DNA of 64,000 bases from Pseudoduganella lutea (GTDB lineage: Bacteria > Pseudomonadota > Gammaproteobacteria > Burkholderiales > Burkholderiaceae_D), in NCBI RefSeq assembly GCF_004209755.1, contig NZ_CP035913.1, positions 7,440,001 to 7,504,000 of the forward strand, read 5' to 3'. Shown here piece by piece: positions 6,237-50,156 of the stretch. The stretch's first letter is position 1, and every line of letters begins with the position of its first letter. Made by a program: the position numbers and the translations under genes. A model generated the notes under the pieces. It searched no databases, was not told where the DNA came from, and saw nothing but the letters and a program-made list of their open reading frames with translations.

Positions 6237-7019
6237 ATGAGCGACCTTCACGATCCGCGGGCCGGGCATGCCGGCCCGCTCCCCGACGTCCAGCCCGGCG
6301 GACGCCGCGGCTTCCTGCGCGGCACGGCCACCGTGGCGCTGTCCTCCGTACTGCTGCCCTCGCAGGCTGCAGCATCCGGGCGGGAAACCCGGCAGGCACC
6401 CTTGCCAGCGGCAGCGTACCGCCCCGTGTATTTCACGCCGAACGAATGGGCCTTCATCCTGGCCGCGGTCGACCGCCTGATTCCGGACGACGGCAACGGC
6501 CCCGGTGGCGTGGCCGCCGGCGTGCCGGAATTTCTCGACAGGCAGATGGAGCTGCCCTACGGGCATGGCGCCTACTGGTACATGCAGGGGCCCTTCCACC
6601 CCGACAGCCCCGCAACGCTCGGCTACCAGTTGCGCCTGACCCCGCGCGAACTCTATCGTGCCGGCATCGCCGCCGCGGACCGGGCGAGCATGGCGCTGCA
6701 TGGCACCGCATTTGCAGGGCTGCGTGCCAACCAGCGCGACACGCTGCTGGCGGCCCTGGAACAGGGCAGCATCCCCCGCGACGGCAGCCTGGCCGCCGCG
6801 TTCTTCGCACTGCTGCTGAAGAATACCCGTGAAGGCTTCTTCGCCGATCCGATGTATGGCGGCAATCGCGGCATGGTGGCGTGGAAGATGATCGGCTTCC
6901 CCGGTGCGCGGGCCGATTTCACCGACTGGATCGACCAGCCGGGCAAGCCGTATCCCTACGGCCCGGTGGCCATCGATGGTTCGACGGGTTCGATAAGGTC
7001 GACGGGAGGGAAGTCATGA
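6237..7019 (+). CDS. Gluconate 2-dehydrogenase subunit 3 family protein (GMC dehydrogenase small subunit)
   Basis: A 260-residue exported small subunit of a membrane-bound GMC dehydrogenase. The N-terminus carries a twin-arginine signal (GGRRGFLRGTATVALSS) and is followed by the subunit 3 core starting at YFTPNEWAFILAAVDRLIP, with GGNRGMVAWKMIGFPG near the C-terminus. In this family the small subunit is folded with the catalytic subunit and carries it across the membrane through Tat. The ATG at 6237 is chosen; the much longer open frame upstream overlaps the divergent hydrolase gene. Its stop overlaps the start of the FAD subunit gene (ATGA). Confidence 0.88.
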   Translation: MSDLHDPRAGHAGPLPDVQPGGRRGFLRGTATVALSSVLLPSQAAASGRETRQAPLPAAAYRPVYFTPNEWAFILAAVDRLIPDDGNGPGGVAAGVPEFLDRQMELPYGHGAYWYMQGPFHPDSPATLGYQLRLTPRELYRAGIAAADRASMALHGTAFAGLRANQRDTLLAALEQGSIPRDGSLAAAFFALLLKNTREGFFADPMYGGNRGMVAWKMIGFPGARADFTDWIDQPGKPYPYGPVAIDGSTGSIRSTGGKS

Positions 7020-35022: not shown

Positions 35023-35970
35023 TTAGCGCGGCACGGTGTAATTCACCGGCACGAACTGGTAACCCTTGCCGCTGCTGCGCAAATGGCCCACGCCGGGGAA
35101 CGGCAAGTGGGCGGCACCGATCAGGTAGCCGCCTTTCGCCGCATCGGCAAAGCCAGCCTTGCGCGAAGCCAGCGCGGCCTTGGCGTCGCTGTCGAACTCG
35201 ATCGTCACCGACGGGTCGTCGAACTGGATGAATTGCGCATGAATCAGGTCGCCGATCAGCACCAGCTTTTCGCCCCGGCTTTCCACGACATAGCTCGTGT
35301 GCCCCGGCGTGTGGCCATAACTCGCCGTGGCGCGGATACCCGGCACCAGTTCCGTATTGCCTTCGAACGGCTTGAAGCGGTTCGCGCCGGCATACGCGGC
35401 CAGCGATGACTGTGCCCCCTGGAAGAAACCCTTTGCCTGTTCGGGGGCAGCATCCTGTTTCGCCTTGCTCAGCCAGAAGTCCGCGTCATGCTTGTCCGCG
35501 CGCACCACCGCGTTCGGGAACGCCGGCTTGTCGGCGCTGACCAGGCCGCCCACGTGGTCGGGGTGCAGGTGGGTGATGTAGATCTCGTCGACCTGCTCCG
35601 GCTGGTAGCCGGCCGCTTTCAGGCTTGCCAGCAGCTTGCCCAGCGTGGGGCCGAACAGGCCGCCGGCACCGGTATCGACCAGCACCAGCTTGCTGCCCGT
35701 GTTGATCAGGAATGTGTTGACCGACGTTTCGACCGGCGCCTTCAGGAAGTGCTTCGACAACGCTCCCTGCAACCTGGCGGGCTTTTCATGCAGCAGCTTG
35801 TCCATCGGCAGGTCGACGGTACCGTCGGACAGCACGGTGACCTCGAAGTCGCCAACCATCGTGCGGTAATAGCCGGGTGCCTGGCTCTTGACCATCGGCG
35901 CGGCGGCAAAGGCGGCGGCGGTACTGGCGAGCAGCGCGGCGGCCACCAGGGAACGAGTGAAATGGGTCAT
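35023..35970 (-). CDS. Exported MBL-fold metallo-hydrolase
   Basis: A 315-residue periplasmic metallo-beta-lactamase-fold enzyme. The signal peptide is MTHFTRSLVAAALLASTAAA. The zinc motif is THLHPDHVGG near residue 130, with a later His in GHTPGHTSYV and the Asp of LIGDLIHAQ. The sequence resembles quorum-quenching lactonases and related hydrolases, but the reaction is unassigned. The ATG at 35970 is used; the frame extends to 36024 without a signal at its end. It is the first gene after the OYE operon, converging with it. Confidence 0.87.
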   Translation of the reverse strand: MTHFTRSLVAAALLASTAAAFAAAPMVKSQAPGYYRTMVGDFEVTVLSDGTVDLPMDKLLHEKPARLQGALSKHFLKAPVETSVNTFLINTGSKLVLVDTGAGGLFGPTLGKLLASLKAAGYQPEQVDEIYITHLHPDHVGGLVSADKPAFPNAVVRADKHDADFWLSKAKQDAAPEQAKGFFQGAQSSLAAYAGANRFKPFEGNTELVPGIRATASYGHTPGHTSYVVESRGEKLVLIGDLIHAQFIQFDDPSVTIEFDSDAKAALASRKAGFADAAKGGYLIGAAHLPFPGVGHLRSSGKGYQFVPVNYTVPR

Positions 35971-36063
35971 GGCGTAACGTTCTGATATGTTGCGGGAACG
36001 CCAGATTACCCGAAACGCCGCCATCCTGCCGGCGCCCCTGCCTTCCGGCCTGGCCGGAGGGCA

Positions 36064-37494
36064 TCAAAAAGCCAGAGGGAGGCGCACCGACAGCGAAACG
36101 TCCGGCGTGTCACGTGTCAGCCCGGCACCCACGGTCACGTTGACGGTGCGCTTGTCGGTCAGGCGGTAGGAAAAGCCCATCAGCAAAGTGCCCAGTTGCG
36201 TGCGCACCGAACCCGGCACGTTGACACCGTTCTGCCTGGTCCGCCCCATGGCGCTGTGGTCGTAGCCCAGGCTGAGCGAAGCCTTTTCGTTCAGTGCCAG
36301 CCCGATGCCGAAATTGAAGCCGACCACGGCCCCCGGCGCCACTTCGCCCAGCGGCTCCGTTGCGCCATCGAGCACGCGGCGCGACACATTGCTGCGCTTG
36401 ACATTGTGCAGGTAGCTGACGCTGCCGAAGAAAATGGCCGGATCGCTGGGGAACAGCCACGTAAGGCTCGGCTGCACGCCGTAGAACCCGGAACCGGTCG
36501 GCAACGCCAGCGGCAGGCCCGTGCCGGTGGCGTTTTCACCCACGCAGCGCCGGGTGCAATCGGTGACGACTTCGAACGGGTCGCGGCCCGTGCGCGTCTT
36601 GATCCGCAAGCCGGCCACGTAATAAGGCTTATCGATGCCGCCGTCGTTCAACTGGTGGCGCAGCGACAGTTCCACATCGCCGATGGCCCGCCCGCTCGTC
36701 TCGAACACACGTTCGACAGCCGTGCCGGTAAACAGCTCGCGGCTCACGGTCGAATCGGCGCGGTAAACGTAAGGCACGCGCACCTCGACCTCGGTGCGGT
36801 TGGTCAGGCCGCGCCGCGCCGCCAGCGCCGCCGTGAACGTGTTGCGCTTGACCTCGCGCACGTCGATCAGGCCGATCAGCAGCGCGGGAATGATCGTGTA
36901 GCCCACCAGGGCCACGCGGTTGCTGGAGGAATAGCCGAACCCGAACGATGGTTCGAGCACCGTGCCGCCGCGCGCCGTCAACACACCAGGCGCCTCGAAC
37001 AGCGGCGCCACCTCGGGCGGGCGCGCGTCGCGCGCGGGTGCCTGGCCCACGGCGGCAGCCTTTGCCGCCGGAGCCGCCGGCACCACGGCCGCCGCGCCCT
37101 GCTGCGCGCCGGGCTGGGGCAATGTCGGCTGTGGCTGCGATGGCGCGGCAGGCCCGCCACCCCGCATCGTGGCCAGCAGTGCCGGATGCAGCGGGCGCCG
37201 AAGCGGGCTTGAAACCGGCGGCCCGGCGCCGTCGGTCGATGCCGTTTCCCATCCCTCCACGTGCGGTGCCGCTGCCGGCGGTGCGCCGCGCGACGCCACC
37301 AGCGCCTCGCGCAGTTGCCGCAGCAGCGCACGCTGCTCGGCCAGCTCTTGTCGCAGTTGGTGCAGCTCGGCGGTCGTGGGCCCCTCGGCCGCTGGCGCCG
37401 CGCTCGCAACTCCCGGTGCATCCTGCGCCAGCGCGCTCAACATGATCAGTGACAGGCCGGCTGAACCGGCACGCAGGGTCTGGTCGAACCGCAT
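36064..37494 (-). CDS. FapF-like outer-membrane barrel with N-terminal coiled coil
   Basis: A 476-residue outer-membrane protein. After a signal peptide (AGSAGLSLIMLSALA) come a coiled coil (TAELHQLRQELAEQRALLRQ), a long Ala/Pro-rich linker (residues ~65-170) and a C-terminal beta barrel (FGFGYSSSNRVALVGYTI to VSLSVRLPLAF, ending in Phe). This order of coiled coil, disordered linker and 12-strand-type barrel is that of FapF, the channel that exports Fap amyloid subunits, and of Phenol_MetA_deg-type transporters. GAGGAG precedes the start. It is the last gene of the operon. Assignment rests on architecture and gene order, not on a search. Confidence 0.7.
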   Translation of the reverse strand: MRFDQTLRAGSAGLSLIMLSALAQDAPGVASAAPAAEGPTTAELHQLRQELAEQRALLRQLREALVASRGAPPAAAPHVEGWETASTDGAGPPVSSPLRRPLHPALLATMRGGGPAAPSQPQPTLPQPGAQQGAAAVVPAAPAAKAAAVGQAPARDARPPEVAPLFEAPGVLTARGGTVLEPSFGFGYSSSNRVALVGYTIIPALLIGLIDVREVKRNTFTAALAARRGLTNRTEVEVRVPYVYRADSTVSRELFTGTAVERVFETSGRAIGDVELSLRHQLNDGGIDKPYYVAGLRIKTRTGRDPFEVVTDCTRRCVGENATGTGLPLALPTGSGFYGVQPSLTWLFPSDPAIFFGSVSYLHNVKRSNVSRRVLDGATEPLGEVAPGAVVGFNFGIGLALNEKASLSLGYDHSAMGRTRQNGVNVPGSVRTQLGTLLMGFSYRLTDKRTVNVTVGAGLTRDTPDVSLSVRLPLAF

Positions 37495-37526
37495 GCGAAC
37501 TCCTCGGACTTGGTGGACGAAGCCGC

Positions 37527-37988
37527 TCAGCGCGGCAGGATGGCGGTGGACAGCGACTGGCGCAGGCTGTCGCCGAAATGCATATCCTTCAGGATCGACA
37601 GGCTGTTGACGGTGGCATCGATCCTGGTCTGGCTGCGGATCAACTGGTCATTGGCACTGTTCTGCAGCAGCAGGCCGGCCAGCGGTTGCGCGGCCCCTGC
37701 CAGCGCGCTGCCCTCACCCACGCGCGCCACCTGGAAGGCCGACGGGGCGGCATCCGCCGTCGACAGCTGGCCGCTGGCGACGACGTTGCCATTCAGGCTG
37801 AGCACCCGGTCGATGGACAGCGAGACCAGCAGGCCATTGCCCGTATCGAAGCCGCCCCGGGCCTCGCCCAGCACGTGCTCGCCGACGGCCACCCAGCCCG
37901 CAGGTGCCGCCGCGGCGAACGCCGGCGCCACGAGGCACGCGGCCGCCAGCATGCAGGCGCGGGGCCATGGCAAACAGCGGATCTTCAT
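37527..37988 (-). CDS. Secreted protein in FapE position, QNS-motif
   Basis: A 153-residue exported protein with signal peptide ending near VAPAFAAAAP. It contains a beta-rich core (LLVSLSIDRVLSLNGNVVAS) and near its end LLLQNSANDQLIRSQTRID, which matches a motif also found in two other secreted proteins of this locus (IQNSGANVLIQ, SQNSGISSLVQ). It starts 11 bases after the peptidase gene with GAAGGAG in front, and is followed after 32 bases by the barrel gene. Position is that of fapE. The function is unknown; interaction with the fibre subunits is an inference. Confidence 0.65.
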   Translation of the reverse strand: MKIRCLPWPRACMLAAACLVAPAFAAAAPAGWVAVGEHVLGEARGGFDTGNGLLVSLSIDRVLSLNGNVVASGQLSTADAAPSAFQVARVGEGSALAGAAQPLAGLLLQNSANDQLIRSQTRIDATVNSLSILKDMHFGDSLRQSLSTAILPR

Positions 37989-37999
37989 GGGTCTCTCCT

Positions 38000-38944
38000 T
38001 CAAAAATCGCCGGCGTCGAACTTTGGCAGCGTTACGCGCTGCAGGCTGTCGCGCTGGAGCGCATCGCCGGGCGGCAGACGCGGCGCGGCCGCCCAGTCGG
38101 ATCGTTCATTGAAGCGCGCTTTGCCCGGGCGGTCATGGATCACGAACAAGAGTTGGTTCAGCCAGATCGCCTCGAACGCCGCACGCGACAATGCGCGCGT
38201 GCCACCGGACGGATCGCCGAACAGCACCCGCCCATCCCGCATGCCCTTGACCACGACGAAGTGCCGGTAGCCATGTTCGGCCACCAGCACGATCGCGGGC
38301 AGCCCCGCCTTCGCCAGGTTGTCGAGGGGTTGCTGGAATCCATCGGCCGTGAAGCCATGCGCGGCCAGGAAGCGCTTCATGTCGAGCAGCGAAAAACCTT
38401 CCTGGCGAATGCGCCGCTGGTCGCCGCCGGCAAACATCTGGGCAAAGGCCTGCTGTTCGCCGACGGGGTAGCCGTAGTGATGCGTCAGCAGCGTGGCCAG
38501 TGCCGCCGAACCGCAACTGAAGTCATATTGCTGGCGCACGGTGGACAGGTAACGGGCCTCTTTCAGGCTGGTGACCCGCATCGATACGGGACCGCCGCCG
38601 GCGATCGGCAGGTCGGCGGCGGGCACGAGCACGGGCAAGCTCAACAGAGAGCCCAGCCACAGTGATCGCAGCATCGACGACAGCATGCGAAGCCGTGGCG
38701 CAAGCGTCCAAAGCCGTGGCGCAATGGCGCGCAATGCCGTCAATCGAAACGGGTTCGATACCGGCGAAGCGATCCCCCAGCGGTAAGGCATCTCCCTGGA
38801 GAGCGGGATCACCTGGGAGAGCGGGATCGCCCGGGAAAACGACATCGCCATGGGCGGATTCGCCATCGATAGCGGGCTCCCCCTTGCGGTGCCCGTCCAC
38901 CCGGCCAGCCGGCGCCGGGCTGGCATTCCCGCCGGCGCCTTCAT
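38000..38944 (-). CDS. C39 family cysteine peptidase (FapD-like)
   Basis: Up to 314 residues. The C-terminal ~200 form a C39 (papain-like, bacteriocin-processing type) peptidase: catalytic Cys in VRQQYDFSCGSAALATLL, His in YRHFVVVKGMRDG and Asp in FGDPSGGT. Same-type peptidases are FapD in Pseudomonas. The ATG at 38944 overlaps the upstream stop (ATGA). This start gives an 86-residue N-terminal extension with in-frame repeats (SRAIPL, SQVIPL; LAPRLWT, LAPRLRM). A shorter start at 38686 (MLSSMLRSLWLGSLLSLPVL) would give a signal peptide directly and a more usual length. The true start is open. Confidence 0.75.
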   Translation of the reverse strand: MKAPAGMPARRRLAGWTGTARGSPLSMANPPMAMSFSRAIPLSQVIPLSREMPYRWGIASPVSNPFRLTALRAIAPRLWTLAPRLRMLSSMLRSLWLGSLLSLPVLVPAADLPIAGGGPVSMRVTSLKEARYLSTVRQQYDFSCGSAALATLLTHHYGYPVGEQQAFAQMFAGGDQRRIRQEGFSLLDMKRFLAAHGFTADGFQQPLDNLAKAGLPAIVLVAEHGYRHFVVVKGMRDGRVLFGDPSGGTRALSRAAFEAIWLNQLLFVIHDRPGKARFNERSDWAAAPRLPPGDALQRDSLQRVTLPKFDAGDF

Positions 38945-39435
38945 CGGATCTGCACGTTGACGATGGTGGCGTTCTGGATCAGCACATTGGCGCCCGAATT
39001 CTGGATCACCATCGGCAATCCCGACGCGTTGCTGAACGCCCCATCGGTAATCGTGTTCGTTCCCGTGGCAACATTGATCGCGGTATTGCCACCGACCGTG
39101 CCGCTCAACGCCATTTCGCTCCATGGTGTTCCGGTGCCGCCGCGCAGTGTGTCCAGGCTGGCGTTGCCCAGTGCACCGTGCGCACCAGGTGTTTCCGGCG
39201 CTGCTTGCGCAACGGGGGGCAGGTCCCGCACCGCCCCGGGCAGGGGCAGCGGCCCCGCTTCCACGAGGAATGTTCGCGGCACGTCCTCCTCCGCAGCGGA
39301 CACGCATGCCACCGCAAGGCTCGCCCACAGCAATACCGCGCCAAGCCTGCGCACGCCGCGCCACACCAGTGCCATTCCCGCCCCTCCGGCCGGGCGCGCC
39401 AGCCTCCTGCCTGTTCCGGTCATTCGATCGTGCAT
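38941..39435 (-). CDS. Small secreted protein with IQNSG motif (minor-subunit candidate)
   Basis: A 164-residue exported protein. The signal sequence lies near residues 18-46 (GMALVWRGVRRLGAVLLWAS). The C-terminal third is beta/Asn-rich: GNTAINVATGTNTITDGAFS, then VIQNSGANVLIQNATIVNV. This end resembles that of the large Gly-rich protein encoded just upstream, so both may be subunits of one fibre, with this one as the minor partner (inference). GGAGGAACC precedes the ATG at 39435. The stop overlaps the possible start of the peptidase gene. Confidence 0.7.
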   Translation of the reverse strand: MHDRMTGTGRRLARPAGGAGMALVWRGVRRLGAVLLWASLAVACVSAAEEDVPRTFLVEAGPLPLPGAVRDLPPVAQAAPETPGAHGALGNASLDTLRGGTGTPWSEMALSGTVGGNTAINVATGTNTITDGAFSNASGLPMVIQNSGANVLIQNATIVNVQIR

Positions 39436-39481
39436 GGTTCCTCCATCGGTCTCGCGCAATGTCGGGCCTCGTTCCGGCCAT

Positions 39482-39516
39482 GTGCGGAAGGCCACCGTTT
39501 CGGTGGCCTTCCGCAC
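39482..39516 (-). terminator. Perfect 16-bp intercistronic hairpin after the Gly-rich gene
   Basis: GTGCGGAAGGCCACCG and CGGTGGCCTTCCGCAC pair completely over 16 bases with a three-base loop, 13 bases after the stop of the large gene. No T-run follows. It probably lowers read-through and stabilises the upstream mRNA, making the major protein more abundant than the rest. Confidence 0.75.
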
Positions 39517-39528
39517 GCAGTTACCGCC

Positions 39529-41484
39529 TTAGCGGCCGACCGCCAGGTTGGCCTGCACGTTGACGCTCTGCTGCACGAGCGAACTGATGCCGCTGTTCTG
39601 GCTGATGACGGAAATGCCCGCGGCCGACTGCGCCACGCCACTCATCGCGTTGGACATGTTGAAGGTGCCGGCATTGACCGTGTTGCTGCCGCCAGCGCCA
39701 CCCGTGCCACCTTCGCCGGTGCCACCCGTGGCGGCACCGGCAGTCGTGGCACCCGTGGCGCCGCCCGCCCCGCCCGTGCCCGCGCCACCGGCACCGCCCG
39801 CGCCGCCGTCACCGGCCATGGCACTGCCGTTGGTGGCGCTGCCGCCAGTCCCTGCACCACCGGTGCCGGCACCGGCCGTGGACGTGCCACCCGTTCCCGC
39901 GCCACCAGAAGCACCGGCACCCGCCGTGTTCGATGCGGCGCCACTTGCCGCGCCGGACCCGCCGGCCGCGCCGGCAGCCCCGTTACCTGCGGTGCTGCTG
40001 CCGCTGCCACCGGCCGCGCCGCTGCCGCCCATGCCGCCGGTGCCGGCCGCCCCGGCACCACCCGCCGTGCTGGCCGTGGCTCCCGCGCCGCCGCCGCCGG
40101 ACGTGTTCGTGCCGCCGGCCGCGCCTGCGCCCGCCGTGTTGGTGGCGGCAGCACCGGCACCGCCGGCACCGCCCGCACCGCCACTGGCGCCCGCGCCAAC
40201 GGCCGCGCCGGCACCGCCAGCCCCGGCCGTCTGCGTACCGCCGCGCGCCGTCACGGCGCCGGTCGTGCCGGCGCCACCCGCAGCGGTACCGCCGCTACCG
40301 GCGCCACCCGTGCCGCCGGCCCCGCCGCCAGCGCCGCCGGTGGCCGCCCCGGAGGTGGTACTGGCCGTCTGGTCACCCGTGCTTGGCGGCGGTTCGCCGG
40401 ATGGCGTGCCGCTCGCGGTGCTGGCGGTCCCCGCCCCGCTCGTTCCCGCGCCGCCATAGCCGGCCGTGCCGGCGCCCGCGCCGCCCGGCCCGTTGCCACC
40501 GGTCGCATTGCCGGCCGTTGCCGTGCTGCCCGCATCCGCACCGCCCGATGACGCCGCGCCGCCCGCCGCGCCAGCACCACCGGCGCCGCCTGCGCCACCC
40601 AAGCCGCCCAGCCCGCCAGTGCCACCCGCACCGCCCGCCGCCGCGCCGGTGGCGCCGCCGTTACCGCCCGCGGCACCCGTCGAACTGCCGCTGGCGCCAC
40701 CCGCGCCGCCGGTGGCCATGCCGGCCAGGCCGCCGGCACCGCCGGTTCCCGCGCCGCCCGCCGCACCGCTGCCGCCCGCACCGCCATAGCCGTCGGAGCT
40801 GGTGCCCCCCGCACCGCCAAGGCCACCGACGCCGCCTGCGCCGCCGGCACCCGACGTGGCACCCGTTGCCAGGCCGCCAGCGCCACCAGCGCCGCCAGTT
40901 GTTGCCCCATTGGTGGCATTGCCGCCGGTCGCCATGCCGCCCGCGCCGGCGCCACCGGTCGCATTGCCATTGGTGGCCACACCACCGATGCCGCCGGCCG
41001 CGCCCGTTGCACCGGCGCCGTTGCCGCCCGCGCCGGCCGTGGCGGCCGCATTGCCGCCCGTGGCCGCGCCGCCGGTACCGCCGGCGGCGGTACCGCCGCT
41101 GGCCGCGCCATTATTGGTGGCCACGTTGCCGATGTGGTTCACCGTATTGCCGCTGACGGTACCGGTCAGCGTGCTGACCGCGGTGGCGGTCGAAGTATTG
41201 AATGCATTGTCGAGGTTCGAGGTCGCCGTGGCGCCGTTGTTGGCCGAGGCGGCGCCGGCAGCCAGTGCGGTCGCATAGCCGGTACTGTTGTTATTGTTGT
41301 TGGCCTGGGTGTTGTCACGGTTGGAGCTGGAATCGCTGGTGCTGTTGTCGATCGTCGCCGTCGATGCATCGTTGGCATGGGCTCCCGCGCCGCTTTGCGT
41401 CACTGCCGACGTGGGGTCGGTGGTCTGGGCATAGGCGCCGCTGCAGGCTAACGCGATTGCCGTGGCAAACATGGTTTTCTTCAT
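39529..41484 (-). CDS. Large Gly-Gly-X-rich secreted protein (fibre-subunit candidate)
   Basis: A 651-residue exported protein. Signal peptide MKKTMFATAIALACSGAYA; residues ~20-125 are Asn/Ser/Thr-rich (STSDSSSNRDNTQANNNNNS, TVSGNTVNHIGNVATNN); ~125-595 are made of Gly-Gly-X triplets (GGAGGAGGVGGLGGAGG) with almost no charge, no Cys and few bulky residues. The last ~50 residues return to an Asn/Ser/Gln-rich segment (FNMSNAMSGV, SQNSGISSLVQQSVNVQANL). It resembles amyloid or polyglycine-II structural proteins rather than an enzyme. GAGGAAAG precedes the ATG at 41484. It is the first gene of the operon, behind a sigma-54 promoter. Confidence 0.8.
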   Translation of the reverse strand: MKKTMFATAIALACSGAYAQTTDPTSAVTQSGAGAHANDASTATIDNSTSDSSSNRDNTQANNNNNSTGYATALAAGAASANNGATATSNLDNAFNTSTATAVSTLTGTVSGNTVNHIGNVATNNGAASGGTAAGGTGGAATGGNAAATAGAGGNGAGATGAAGGIGGVATNGNATGGAGAGGMATGGNATNGATTGGAGGAGGLATGATSGAGGAGGVGGLGGAGGTSSDGYGGAGGSGAAGGAGTGGAGGLAGMATGGAGGASGSSTGAAGGNGGATGAAAGGAGGTGGLGGLGGAGGAGGAGAAGGAASSGGADAGSTATAGNATGGNGPGGAGAGTAGYGGAGTSGAGTASTASGTPSGEPPPSTGDQTASTTSGAATGGAGGGAGGTGGAGSGGTAAGGAGTTGAVTARGGTQTAGAGGAGAAVGAGASGGAGGAGGAGAAATNTAGAGAAGGTNTSGGGGAGATASTAGGAGAAGTGGMGGSGAAGGSGSSTAGNGAAGAAGGSGAASGAASNTAGAGASGGAGTGGTSTAGAGTGGAGTGGSATNGSAMAGDGGAGGAGGAGTGGAGGATGATTAGAATGGTGEGGTGGAGGSNTVNAGTFNMSNAMSGVAQSAAGISVISQNSGISSLVQQSVNVQANLAVGR

Positions 41485-41641
41485 TCTTTCCTCGCTGAAG
41501 TAGTGGGCCGATCCGATCGATTTGCCGGTTGTCGAGCGATCCAGCCATGGCGCTGTCGCGCTATGAGCTATCAAGCTGTCGGTGGCGGGTGACCGGAATT
41601 GCGCGGGATCGCATGTGCGACGCTCGCGTCCTCGACTTATC

Positions 41642-41656
41642 GCAAGCTTGGTGCCA
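41642..41656 (-). promoter_or_regulatory. Sigma-54 promoter of the Fap-like operon
   Basis: Read on the minus strand, TGGCACCAAGCTTGC contains the -24 GG and -12 GC with exactly ten bases between, and both full blocks TGGCAC and TTGC. The transcript would start near 41630, giving a leader of about 145 bases before the Gly-rich gene. Confidence 0.85.
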
Positions 41657-41908: not shown

Positions 41909-43305
41909 TCACGGCTCGCGCTTGCGGGCTGGTGGGGCAATGCTGTGCTTGGCCATCAGGCGGTAAACCGTCATGCGCGATACGCCCAGTTCGCGTGCCA
42001 CGTGCGTGATGCTCTTGCCGGCGCGCAGGCCGGCTTCGACGGCGCGATGTTCGGCCTGCATGCGCGCGCCGTGCAGGGCCAGCGCCGGCGCCGTGGCGGC
42101 ATCCAGGCCGAGATCGTGCGGCATGATCAGCCGGCCTTCCGCCATCACGGCCGCGCGGCGCACGCGGTTGTGCAGTTCGCGCACATTGCCGGGCCAGTGA
42201 TGCGCGCCCAGCGCCTCCAGCGCGCCACGGGAAAACCCCCGCAAATACGCGGGGCGTTCGCGGGCATGGTCGTGGAAGAACGTTTCGGCAAGCACCGTCA
42301 CATCTTCGCGGCGTTCGCGCAGCGGCGGCATTTCCAGCGTCAGCACATTGAGGCGATAGAACAGGTCTTCGCGAAACGTGCCCCGGGCAACGGCGGCGTC
42401 GAGCCGCACATGGGATGCCGCGATCACGCGCACGTCCACCGGCAGCGGGCGCGTGCCCCCAGGCGATAGATCGTTTTCTCTTGCAGGAAACGCAGCAGGT
42501 TGGCCTGCATGTCCAGGGGCAGGTCGCCGATATCATCCAGGAAGACCGCGCCGCCCGCGGCTGATTCGATCAGGCCGGCACGCGCCTTGCCAGCGCCCGT
42601 AAACGCGCCCCGCTCATGGCCGAACAGCTCCGACTGCACCAGGCTGGCGGGAATCGCGCCGCAATTGATCGGCACGAACGGCCCGTGCGCACGCGCGGAG
42701 CCTTCATGCACCGCGCGCGCGGCCAGTTCCTTGCCGGTGCCGCTTTCGCCCCAGATCAGCACCGGTGCATCGGCCGCCGCCACCTTGCGCAATTGCCGGC
42801 GCAGGCGGGCGATCGCCTCGCTGTTGCCGGTAAGGCGCGACGCGTGCGGTTCGGCGGCATGATGGCAGGCCTCGCCAGCCGTCGGTATGAGGCTCGCAAG
42901 CCCGTATGCATGGCCCAGCGTCTGCCTCAGCCGCGCCGTGTCGACGGGCATTGTGTGAAAATCGAGACAGTGGTCGGCAACGAGCTTGCGGCAGACGGCG
43001 TCGCCCAGCGTCGCGGTGCTGCAGACCGCGACCCAGCGCGTGCGGAAGTGTTCGCGCAGCAGGAGGTCGAGCGAATCGACGGTCCATGGATTGCCGGGCG
43101 CCACGGCGTGTGCCTGGGTGTGCGCCTGAGCGGGCAGCCGGTCGAGCACCAACAGGCCGACCGGCACCGGGTGCGCGCTCAGCAGGGCATGTGCTTCCGC
43201 CAGGTCGCGGGCAACACGGATCGTGAAACCGGTGGCCGCAGCCTCCAGCACGGCCGAGACGGCGGCATCCGGCGCGGGGATGCAAAGCAGTTGTCGTTGT
43301 AGCAT
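41909..43305 (-). pseudogene. Sigma-54-dependent activator gene, frameshifted
   Basis: Two overlapping frames encode one activator of ~465 residues. The 5' frame (42424-43305) has an N-terminal atypical receiver-like region (residues ~1-120), then the AAA+ domain with Walker A GESGTGKE, the sigma-54 loop GAFTGA and Walker B VFLDDIGD. It breaks after TIYRLGARA. The 3' frame (from 42439 to 41909) resumes [20 protein letters not shown], then LRERREDV, HHWPGNVRELHNRVR and a Fis-type HTH (KSITHVARELGVSRMTVYRL). One more G in the run of five (C-run at 42456-42460 on the plus strand) restores the frame. It is adjacent to a sigma-54 promoter it probably serves. Confidence 0.82.
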
Positions 43306-50141: not shown

Positions 50142-50156
50142 GCAAGTTGCGTGCCA
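50142..50156 (-). promoter_or_regulatory. Sigma-54 promoter of the urease operon
   Basis: Read on the minus strand, TGGCACGCAACTTGC matches the full consensus TGGCACG-N4-TTGC, with GG and GC ten bases apart. The start of transcription would be near 50130, about 20 bases before ureD. This points to nitrogen control of urease. Confidence 0.92.

Follow-up and report, generated by a model that had tools for sequence, protein, structure and literature searches.

The Fap system of Pseudomonas (fapABCDEF) secretes an amyloid, and its C39 peptidase FapD is essential for this secretion. Passages of Rouse 2017 (PMC5557850) report that the FapD C38A substitution abolishes FapC secretion, that FapE is N-terminally processed, its N-terminal peptides being absent, and that the FapF linker is a possible cleavage site; the FapD target is described there as unclear, the Fap proteins being without canonical C39 sequences. 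A section of a 2018 review (PMC6173800) likewise calls the target unclear and records fapD-fapF pairs in five more phyla, while a section of Dueholm 2013 (PMC3792158) assigns FapD and FapF to larger families. According to a passage of a 2025 review (PMC12822426), FapD is thought to process the FapE N-terminus and the periplasmic part of FapF, and FapB and FapC almost invariably carry three repeats. Here we describe a related operon of five minus-strand genes, G1 to G5, in a 64,000-nucleotide stretch of Pseudoduganella lutea DNA (the window; bases 7440001-7504000 of NZ_CP035913.1, the only contig of the 7.50-Mb genome).

These genes are likely to be a Fap-like operon for secretion across the outer membrane, standing beside the Pseudomonas Fap system, and to export their glycine-rich product G1 by the pathway proposed below. 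The operon keeps a double-glycine-type motif in its FapE-like protein (G4), its FapB-like protein (G2) and the linker of its channel (G5). This recurring, leader-like sequence suggests what the C39 peptidase (G3) cuts. What is new here is the proposal of exact FapD-type cut sites, where the published target was at first unclear and then presumed to be FapE and FapF. A literature search, with most subscription journals outside it, listed nothing whose title or abstract concerned a Fap-like operon with a glycine-rich product or this motif in FapE.

Relation to the Fap and Fil systems

The operon shares with Fap a related peptidase, a FapE-like protein, a FapF-like channel and the same B/C-D-E-F order. 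The original prediction, which a model made from this DNA, had named five minus-strand genes; all are present, in the order it gave (Table 1). We are highly confident that the secretion machinery is Fap-like. G3 matches PF03412 (4.2e-19) and, having been likened to FapD, does score as FilB/FapD, with 131 bits (6.4e-38) against the NCBIfam FilB model and 124 bits (5.1e-36) against FapD. The latter value is below the FapD cut-off of 330 bits (NF058616), with the catalytic residues intact. Indeed, the catalytic Cys, His and Asp are invariant in 29/29 peptidases of group I, the window's clade of loci, and in 73/73 aligned peptidases; this alignment, like the C39 tree below, omits matches shorter than 110 residues, among them the remnant in L043 (L-numbers denote individual loci). 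Among solved structures, the closest in sequence to G3 is the C39 domain of a bacteriocin transporter (E 2.7e-5). The true start of G3 may lie downstream of its ATG, at the signal-peptide-like MLSSMLRSLWLG. The N-terminal extension of the C39 frame (38700-38944, minus strand), ahead of the likely signal peptide, contains the near-repeats AIPLSQVIPLSREM; some relatives, e.g. L040, start the frame without it.

For G5, likened beforehand to FapF, the best solved relative by sequence and by fold is indeed FapF, and G5 has the same barrel with an N-terminal coiled coil. It is homologous to the FapF model (NF058560) at 145 bits (E 2.7e-42), under the 700-bit cut-off. Among the named matches listed, the closest barrel is that of Pseudoduganella umbonata (80%). 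The database name of the barrel, 'acetate kinase', was rejected as an evident misannotation, since barrel fold and sequence are those of FapF.

The small proteins were compared with Fap by profile comparison (40 column shuffles each unless stated). G4, which has no NCBIfam match, lies between peptidase and channel as FapE does and matches FapE with a score of 37.8 (shuffle maximum 14.4, or 21.2 when G4 was shuffled instead, 30 times). This match spans only 34 columns flanking the leader-like motif and is therefore not independent of it, which weakens the case. G2 gives a weak match to FapB over 22 columns (29.4, shuffle maximum 17.0) and, with one motif instead of three, scores 17.3 against the Fap-repeat profile (shuffle maximum 13.1). 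G2 and G4 also match each other (66.8, shuffle maximum 23.8). By eye, no FapA is seen between the regulator and G1, where no FapA profile was run; a passage of PMC3792158 states that fapA is often deleted in Fap systems as well.

In the unrooted C39-domain tree (73 rows), group I forms one clade (support 100/90), present in 100% of bootstrap trees. The barrel tree (62 rows) was midpoint-rooted for drawing only and omits ten near-copies or fragments and cut rows of at most 200 residues; group I is one clade in it (99/99) and Fap proper another (89/89). In neither tree does group I fall inside the Fap clade. The earlier suggestion of a divergent relative of Fap thus gains support, in the form of a clade separate in both trees, and for this reason group I is better regarded as its own subfamily than as part of Fap. 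Judged from sequence, the operon is a Fap-like sister subfamily and not Fap proper, because it scores below the NCBIfam cut-offs, lacks the three repeats of FapC and belongs to a clade of its own. The word 'sister' derives from the barrel tree and the gene content.

The Fil putative pilus system is the other relative to be considered. G3 scores best to FilB (NF050078), and Fil has a FapF-like barrel nearby. It speaks against a closest kinship with Fap that in the C39 tree 10/12 FilBC-like rows sit on a long branch on the same side as the window, the remaining 2/12 lying inside the Fap side. However, the Fil cut-offs are missed too (FilB 131 vs 475 bits; FilC, NF050079, 49 vs 630 bits), the FilBC-like pairs L104-L115 gave no G2 or G4 match, and the five FilBC-like barrels in the barrel tree form a separate, long-branched group. 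The nearest relative, Fap or the FilBC-like group, is not the same in the two trees. L104-L115 represent a second FapD/FapF-like pair, present in the same family of genomes. Downstream of this pair, L106 and L109 have a large gene that resembles one for an outer-membrane protein, and in L105 a small protein with the leader-like MTDAQLDLVVAG precedes the peptidase.

The leader-like motif and its predicted cutting

A passage of the PCAT1 structure paper (PMC6959990) gives the C39 leader consensus as L(-12)XXXE(-8)L(-7)XXXXG(-2)G(-1), in which the residues at -12 and -7 make up a hydrophobic knot. The operon has in common with the peptidase-containing ATP-binding cassette (ABC) transporters PCAT1, ComA and LahT the C39 fold and a leader that is hydrophobic at -12 and -7 with GG at -2/-1. 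Unlike theirs, the G3 peptidase stands alone and is predicted to be periplasmic, no ABC transporter is among the five genes, and export would cross the outer membrane.

The search patterns demand a hydrophobic -7 and allow only set residues at -3 to -1, so that the motif counts below are conditioned at these positions but not at -12 and -8; they include L097, entered manually. All G4 proteins (29/29; L043 has no G4) have R(-3)G(-2)G(-1), and in 28 of them position -12 is L, I, V, M or F. Elsewhere in the 29, hydrophobic residues are found at -13, -11, -10 and -9 in 0 to 1, at -14 in 6 and at -8 in 7. G2 has the motif in 29/30 proteins, with a hydrophobic -12 in 20. The same register is seen in FapE: all 19 Pseudomonadaceae rows have hydrophobic(-12), E(-8), L/M(-7), L(-4), R(-3), G(-2) and R/K(-1), and outside that family a hydrophobic -12, G(-2) and R/K(-1) are present in 14/14 loci. 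'Pseudomonadaceae' denotes a 79-genome family chosen via an OprF match (261 bits), with FapF above its cut-off in 17/79; the 19 loci include near-copies. A protein search for FapE gave no match named Pseudomonas, and FapE was reached through the genomes of this family. With the aligned motif conserved in Pseudomonadaceae FapE, the question of the FapD target becomes open to point mutation. In 12/19 of these loci (L136-L154), the FapA assigned by position carries, by pattern, an ELSDxDF/Y motif ending S-G or T-G. It resembles a C39 leader, and FapA may be a FapD substrate or decoy.

In comparisons with 200 shuffles, L...RGG is found in 27/27 G4 proteins (shuffled maximum 5) and in 21/28 G2 proteins (maximum 3). 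A related L...RG is present in the N-terminal part of 115/116 barrel homologues (shuffled mean 20.6, maximum 31); these 116, all close relatives, are those of at least 410 amino acids among the best 120 of 4147 matches. The L, R, G and following G occupy the same columns in rows 1-20 of alignment A3 (20/20), all of group I, five other group I rows being outside the count. By the same test L...RG is at chance in G1 (1/11) and in the peptidase (11/29).

Several points weigh against reading these motifs as cut sites. The -1 residue is G in 23/29 G2 motifs, the G2 of L097 is without the motif, and FapE has R/K instead of G at -1, for which reason the exact bond cut is unsure. The FapE rows outside Pseudomonadaceae were selected by a pattern containing the motif (the Aeromonas row by eye), and those inside were collected with a profile made from 12 of their own number. 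The barrel motif is found in 23/35 group I loci, several barrels being cut short, and in 3/34 Fap-proper loci, where by eye only L086 resembles the linker site; the match in L125 sits at the barrel start. In the peptidase domain, used as negative control, the stricter -12/-7 form occurs in 10/29, above the shuffled maximum of 9 (mean 3.1).

The motifs might go uncut and represent fold-constrained segments, or binding sites for a peptidase that acts as a chaperone. The R/K at -1 in every FapE row of both sets agrees with this, and C39-like domains that do not cut exist (a passage of PMC6173800). We nonetheless think it unlikely, given the catalytic triad invariant in 73/73 peptidases, the GG in 29/29 G4 proteins and, in the passages of PMC5557850, both the requirement for the catalytic Cys in Fap secretion and the missing FapE N-terminal peptides. 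The predicted cut sites are a strong, testable inference.

In the pathway that we favour, the VpsR-type activator and sigma-54 would switch on G1-G5 from the -24/-12 site observed upstream, and the five products, to judge from their signal-peptide-like N-termini, would reach the periplasm via Sec. There the C39 peptidase would recognise the [V/L](-12)....L(-7)...R-G-G motifs observed in G4 and G2 and cut at them, and it would act likewise on a related R-G-x-G motif that lies in the channel linker. By analogy with the FapF/FapD work, cutting would license the FapF-like channel for export of G1, G2 and G4, and G1 would become a glycine-rich surface protein. Published Fap work points the same way, through the effect of FapD C38A, the FapE N-terminus, the processing of FapF and the RpoN-dependent promoter.

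A further-reaching reading, which we offer only tentatively, is that of a separate system in Burkholderiales and beyond. One periplasmic C39 peptidase would remove double-glycine-type leaders from two exported subunits and would also cut at such a leader in the linker of the channel itself, coupling cargo maturation to gate opening or reset, and the main cargo would be a glycine-rich non-amyloid polymer. If this were true, canonical Fap would be a branch in which the second Gly was replaced by Arg/Lys, RGG here corresponding to RG[R/K] in FapE, and in which the channel-linker site was mostly lost.

The glycine-rich protein G1

Gly makes up 43%, Ala 27% and Thr 13% of the 475 residues at positions 126-600 of G1. 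This tract follows an N-terminal part rich in N/S/T/D, and a conserved motif, AAGISVISQNSGISSLVQQSVNVQANL, is found at the C-terminus. The description in the original prediction as GGX triplets holds in that the protein is GG-rich with a period of three, but there is no strict triplet array: G1 has 70 GG[non-G] triplets in total, and a Gly-to-Gly spacing of three occurs 115 times in 126-600, compared with a mean of 88.4 and a maximum of 104 in 500 shuffles. Among its 631 mature residues are 15 charged and 5 aromatic ones. From these sequences, G1 is a real coding gene under protein-level selection, because differences from the P. umbonata homologue number 65/59/266 at codon positions 1/2/3 over 651 codons and both ends are conserved across 11 aligned sequences. 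The long open reading frames on the opposite strand are probably a by-product of the G+C-rich repeats. G1 matches no Pfam family at E 1 and nothing meaningful in NCBIfam. AlphaFold2, given 11 aligned relatives, left it disordered (mean predicted local distance difference test score 33) and therefore no fold is claimed.

G1 is the variable part of the operon, its Gly fraction ranging from 0.36 to 0.17 across L034-L049; the middle varies most among relatives, and the C-terminal motif stays. Outside the order, G1 is also Gly-rich in L100 and L102, has Asn/Ser/Asp-type repeats in L099, L101 and L125, and short Asn/Asp/Ser-rich repeats in L096. The middle of the Polymorphobacter G1 consists of ASGYN-type repeats. 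In L098, outside the order and in the same clade, the G1 C-terminal motif is present in three to four copies.

The copies in L098, like FapC repeats, together with the gene order and the FapF, FapD and FapE similarities, could be taken to mean that the operon is simply Fap, with G1 a FapC with expanded linkers and the fibre a standard cross-beta Fap amyloid. This appears quite improbable, the FapF and FapD models scoring far under their cut-offs and group I being a clade apart in both trees. Moreover, the three imperfect repeats of FapC are absent from G1, which has a single C-terminal motif, whereas three are almost invariable in FapB and FapC (PMC12822426, in the passage cited above). The G1 C-terminus matches that of G2 (39.1, shuffle maximum 25.6). 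Against 64 Fap repeats it scores 10.6, below the shuffle maximum of 17.4, and against FapB 14.8, next to a maximum of 14.2; only a pooled G1+G2+L098 profile matches FapB (26.4 vs 16.7) and the repeats (19.0 vs 15.0). G1 was therefore rejected as a plain FapC, the repeat profiles supporting the pooled profile and not the C-terminus alone. These scores also tell against the Fap-like assignment that we prefer.

As to what G1 does outside the cell, G2 and the C-terminal motif of G1 would serve in assembly or anchoring, and the Gly/Ala/Thr-rich tract of some 475 residues would form or coat a surface fibre. These are the weakest steps of the proposed pathway, and a surface fibre made of G1 is a plausible guess. 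It is possible, though doubtful, that G1 is no fibre subunit but a glycine-rich surface coat or adhesin secreted by way of the Fap-like channel, the tract forming polyglycine-II-like bundles (presumably, as we judge from composition) or staying disordered. The Gly content and three-residue periodicity, the few charged and aromatic residues, the predicted disorder and the variable middle beside a constant C-terminal motif, with ASGYN-type repeats in Polymorphobacter, fit such a role. On the other hand, the C-terminal motif common to G1 and G2 suggests co-assembly, and the low AlphaFold2 confidence is neutral as to the presence of a fold. Whichever the structure, a survey that requires FapB/C repeats would probably miss operons with glycine-rich cargo and a Fap-like channel.

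Conservation, promoter and neighbouring genes

Table 1. Features of the operon and its upstream region (positions in the window).
Feature	Position	Strand	Description
G1	41484-39529	-	651 amino acids; secreted Gly/Ala/Thr-rich protein; signal-peptide-like start by eye; FapC position
G2	39435-38941	-	164 amino acids; small secreted protein; FapB-like from its position and, weakly, its profile match; contains a leader-like RGG motif plus a single repeat-like motif at the C-terminus
G3	38944-38000	-	C39 cysteine peptidase, FapD/FilB-like; predicted periplasmic; start uncertain
G4	37988-37527	-	153 amino acids; small secreted FapE-like protein; leader-like RGGF motif
G5	37494-36064	-	476 amino acids; FapF-like outer-membrane channel; coiled-coil helix 39-69, then linker, then beta-barrel about 163-476
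C39-leader-like motif in G2	39136-39171	-	residues 89-100, LGNASLDTLRGG; predicted cut site
C39-leader-like motif in G4	37851-37886	-	residues 35-46, VGEHVLGEARGG; predicted cut site
Leader-like motif in G5 linker	37156-37191	-	residues 102-113, LHPALLATMRGG; predicted cut site
Sigma-54-type -24/-12 site	41656-41642	-	TGGCACCAAGCTTGC; 172 bases upstream of G1 start
Sigma-54 activator	41909-43305	-	VpsR domain (PF20161, E 3.3e-14); upstream regulator of operon

Barrel matches at E 1e-3 occur in 56/195 genomes searched in the family, 39 of them reaching E 1e-50. Twenty-seven loci have a G2 match, counting the window and excluding L117, which is the same contig as L049 and was also left out of the peptidase alignment, the motif counts and both trees. 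G2, peptidase, G4 and barrel are co-directional with G1 upstream in 17/27, and in 9/27 the set is otherwise kept with the barrel on the other strand. The claim that the five genes travel together thus survives the genome search. Two findings count against it: L043 (1/27) has a remnant peptidase and no G4, and the barrel copy L116 has no partner matches in its 15 kb. The G1 genes of L034, L045, L048, L049, L098 and L101, missed by the pattern, were read directly, and that of L044 is cut at a contig end. Outside the 27 are L036 and L050-L052 (short or cut, no G2 match) and L097 (no G2 match at threshold). Two more co-directional sets are found in Cupriavidus metallidurans CH34 (megaplasmid, L124) and on a Polymorphobacter plasmid. 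P. umbonata carries the entire operon twice, on separate contigs (L033, L034), each time with a Gly-rich G1.

Within the operon, the G2 stop overlaps the first ATG of G3, and G4 starts 11 bases past G3. Like Fap, the operon has a sigma-54 activator and a -24/-12 promoter; a passage of PMC9207406 describes the fap operon of P. fluorescens PF07 as having a -24/-12 promoter dependent on RpoN and BrfA. The interval of the original prediction ended at 41656, the first base of the site. The window contains 3 matches to the strict pattern TGGCACN5TTGC (0.30 expected), the two further perfect matches being at 6701-6715 (plus strand) and 50142-50156 (minus strand). A -24/-12-like site with a 5-base spacer lies at most 200 bases upstream of G1 in 14/27 group I loci, a count that includes the window, omits L117 and covers several loci cut at contig ends. 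In L120, the spacer of the -24/-12-like site is 4 bases.

The regulator is frameshifted in this assembly, which speaks against the proposed control. It consists of two overlapping frames (43305-42424 and 42439-41909), compared with a single frame in the relatives whose sequence reaches it; the split may be either an assembly error or a real inactivation. Downstream of the barrel, a gene at 35023-36024 (minus strand) looks by eye like a metallo-beta-lactamase-fold hydrolase, and a homologue of it is also found downstream of the barrel in L033, L035, L036 and L040.
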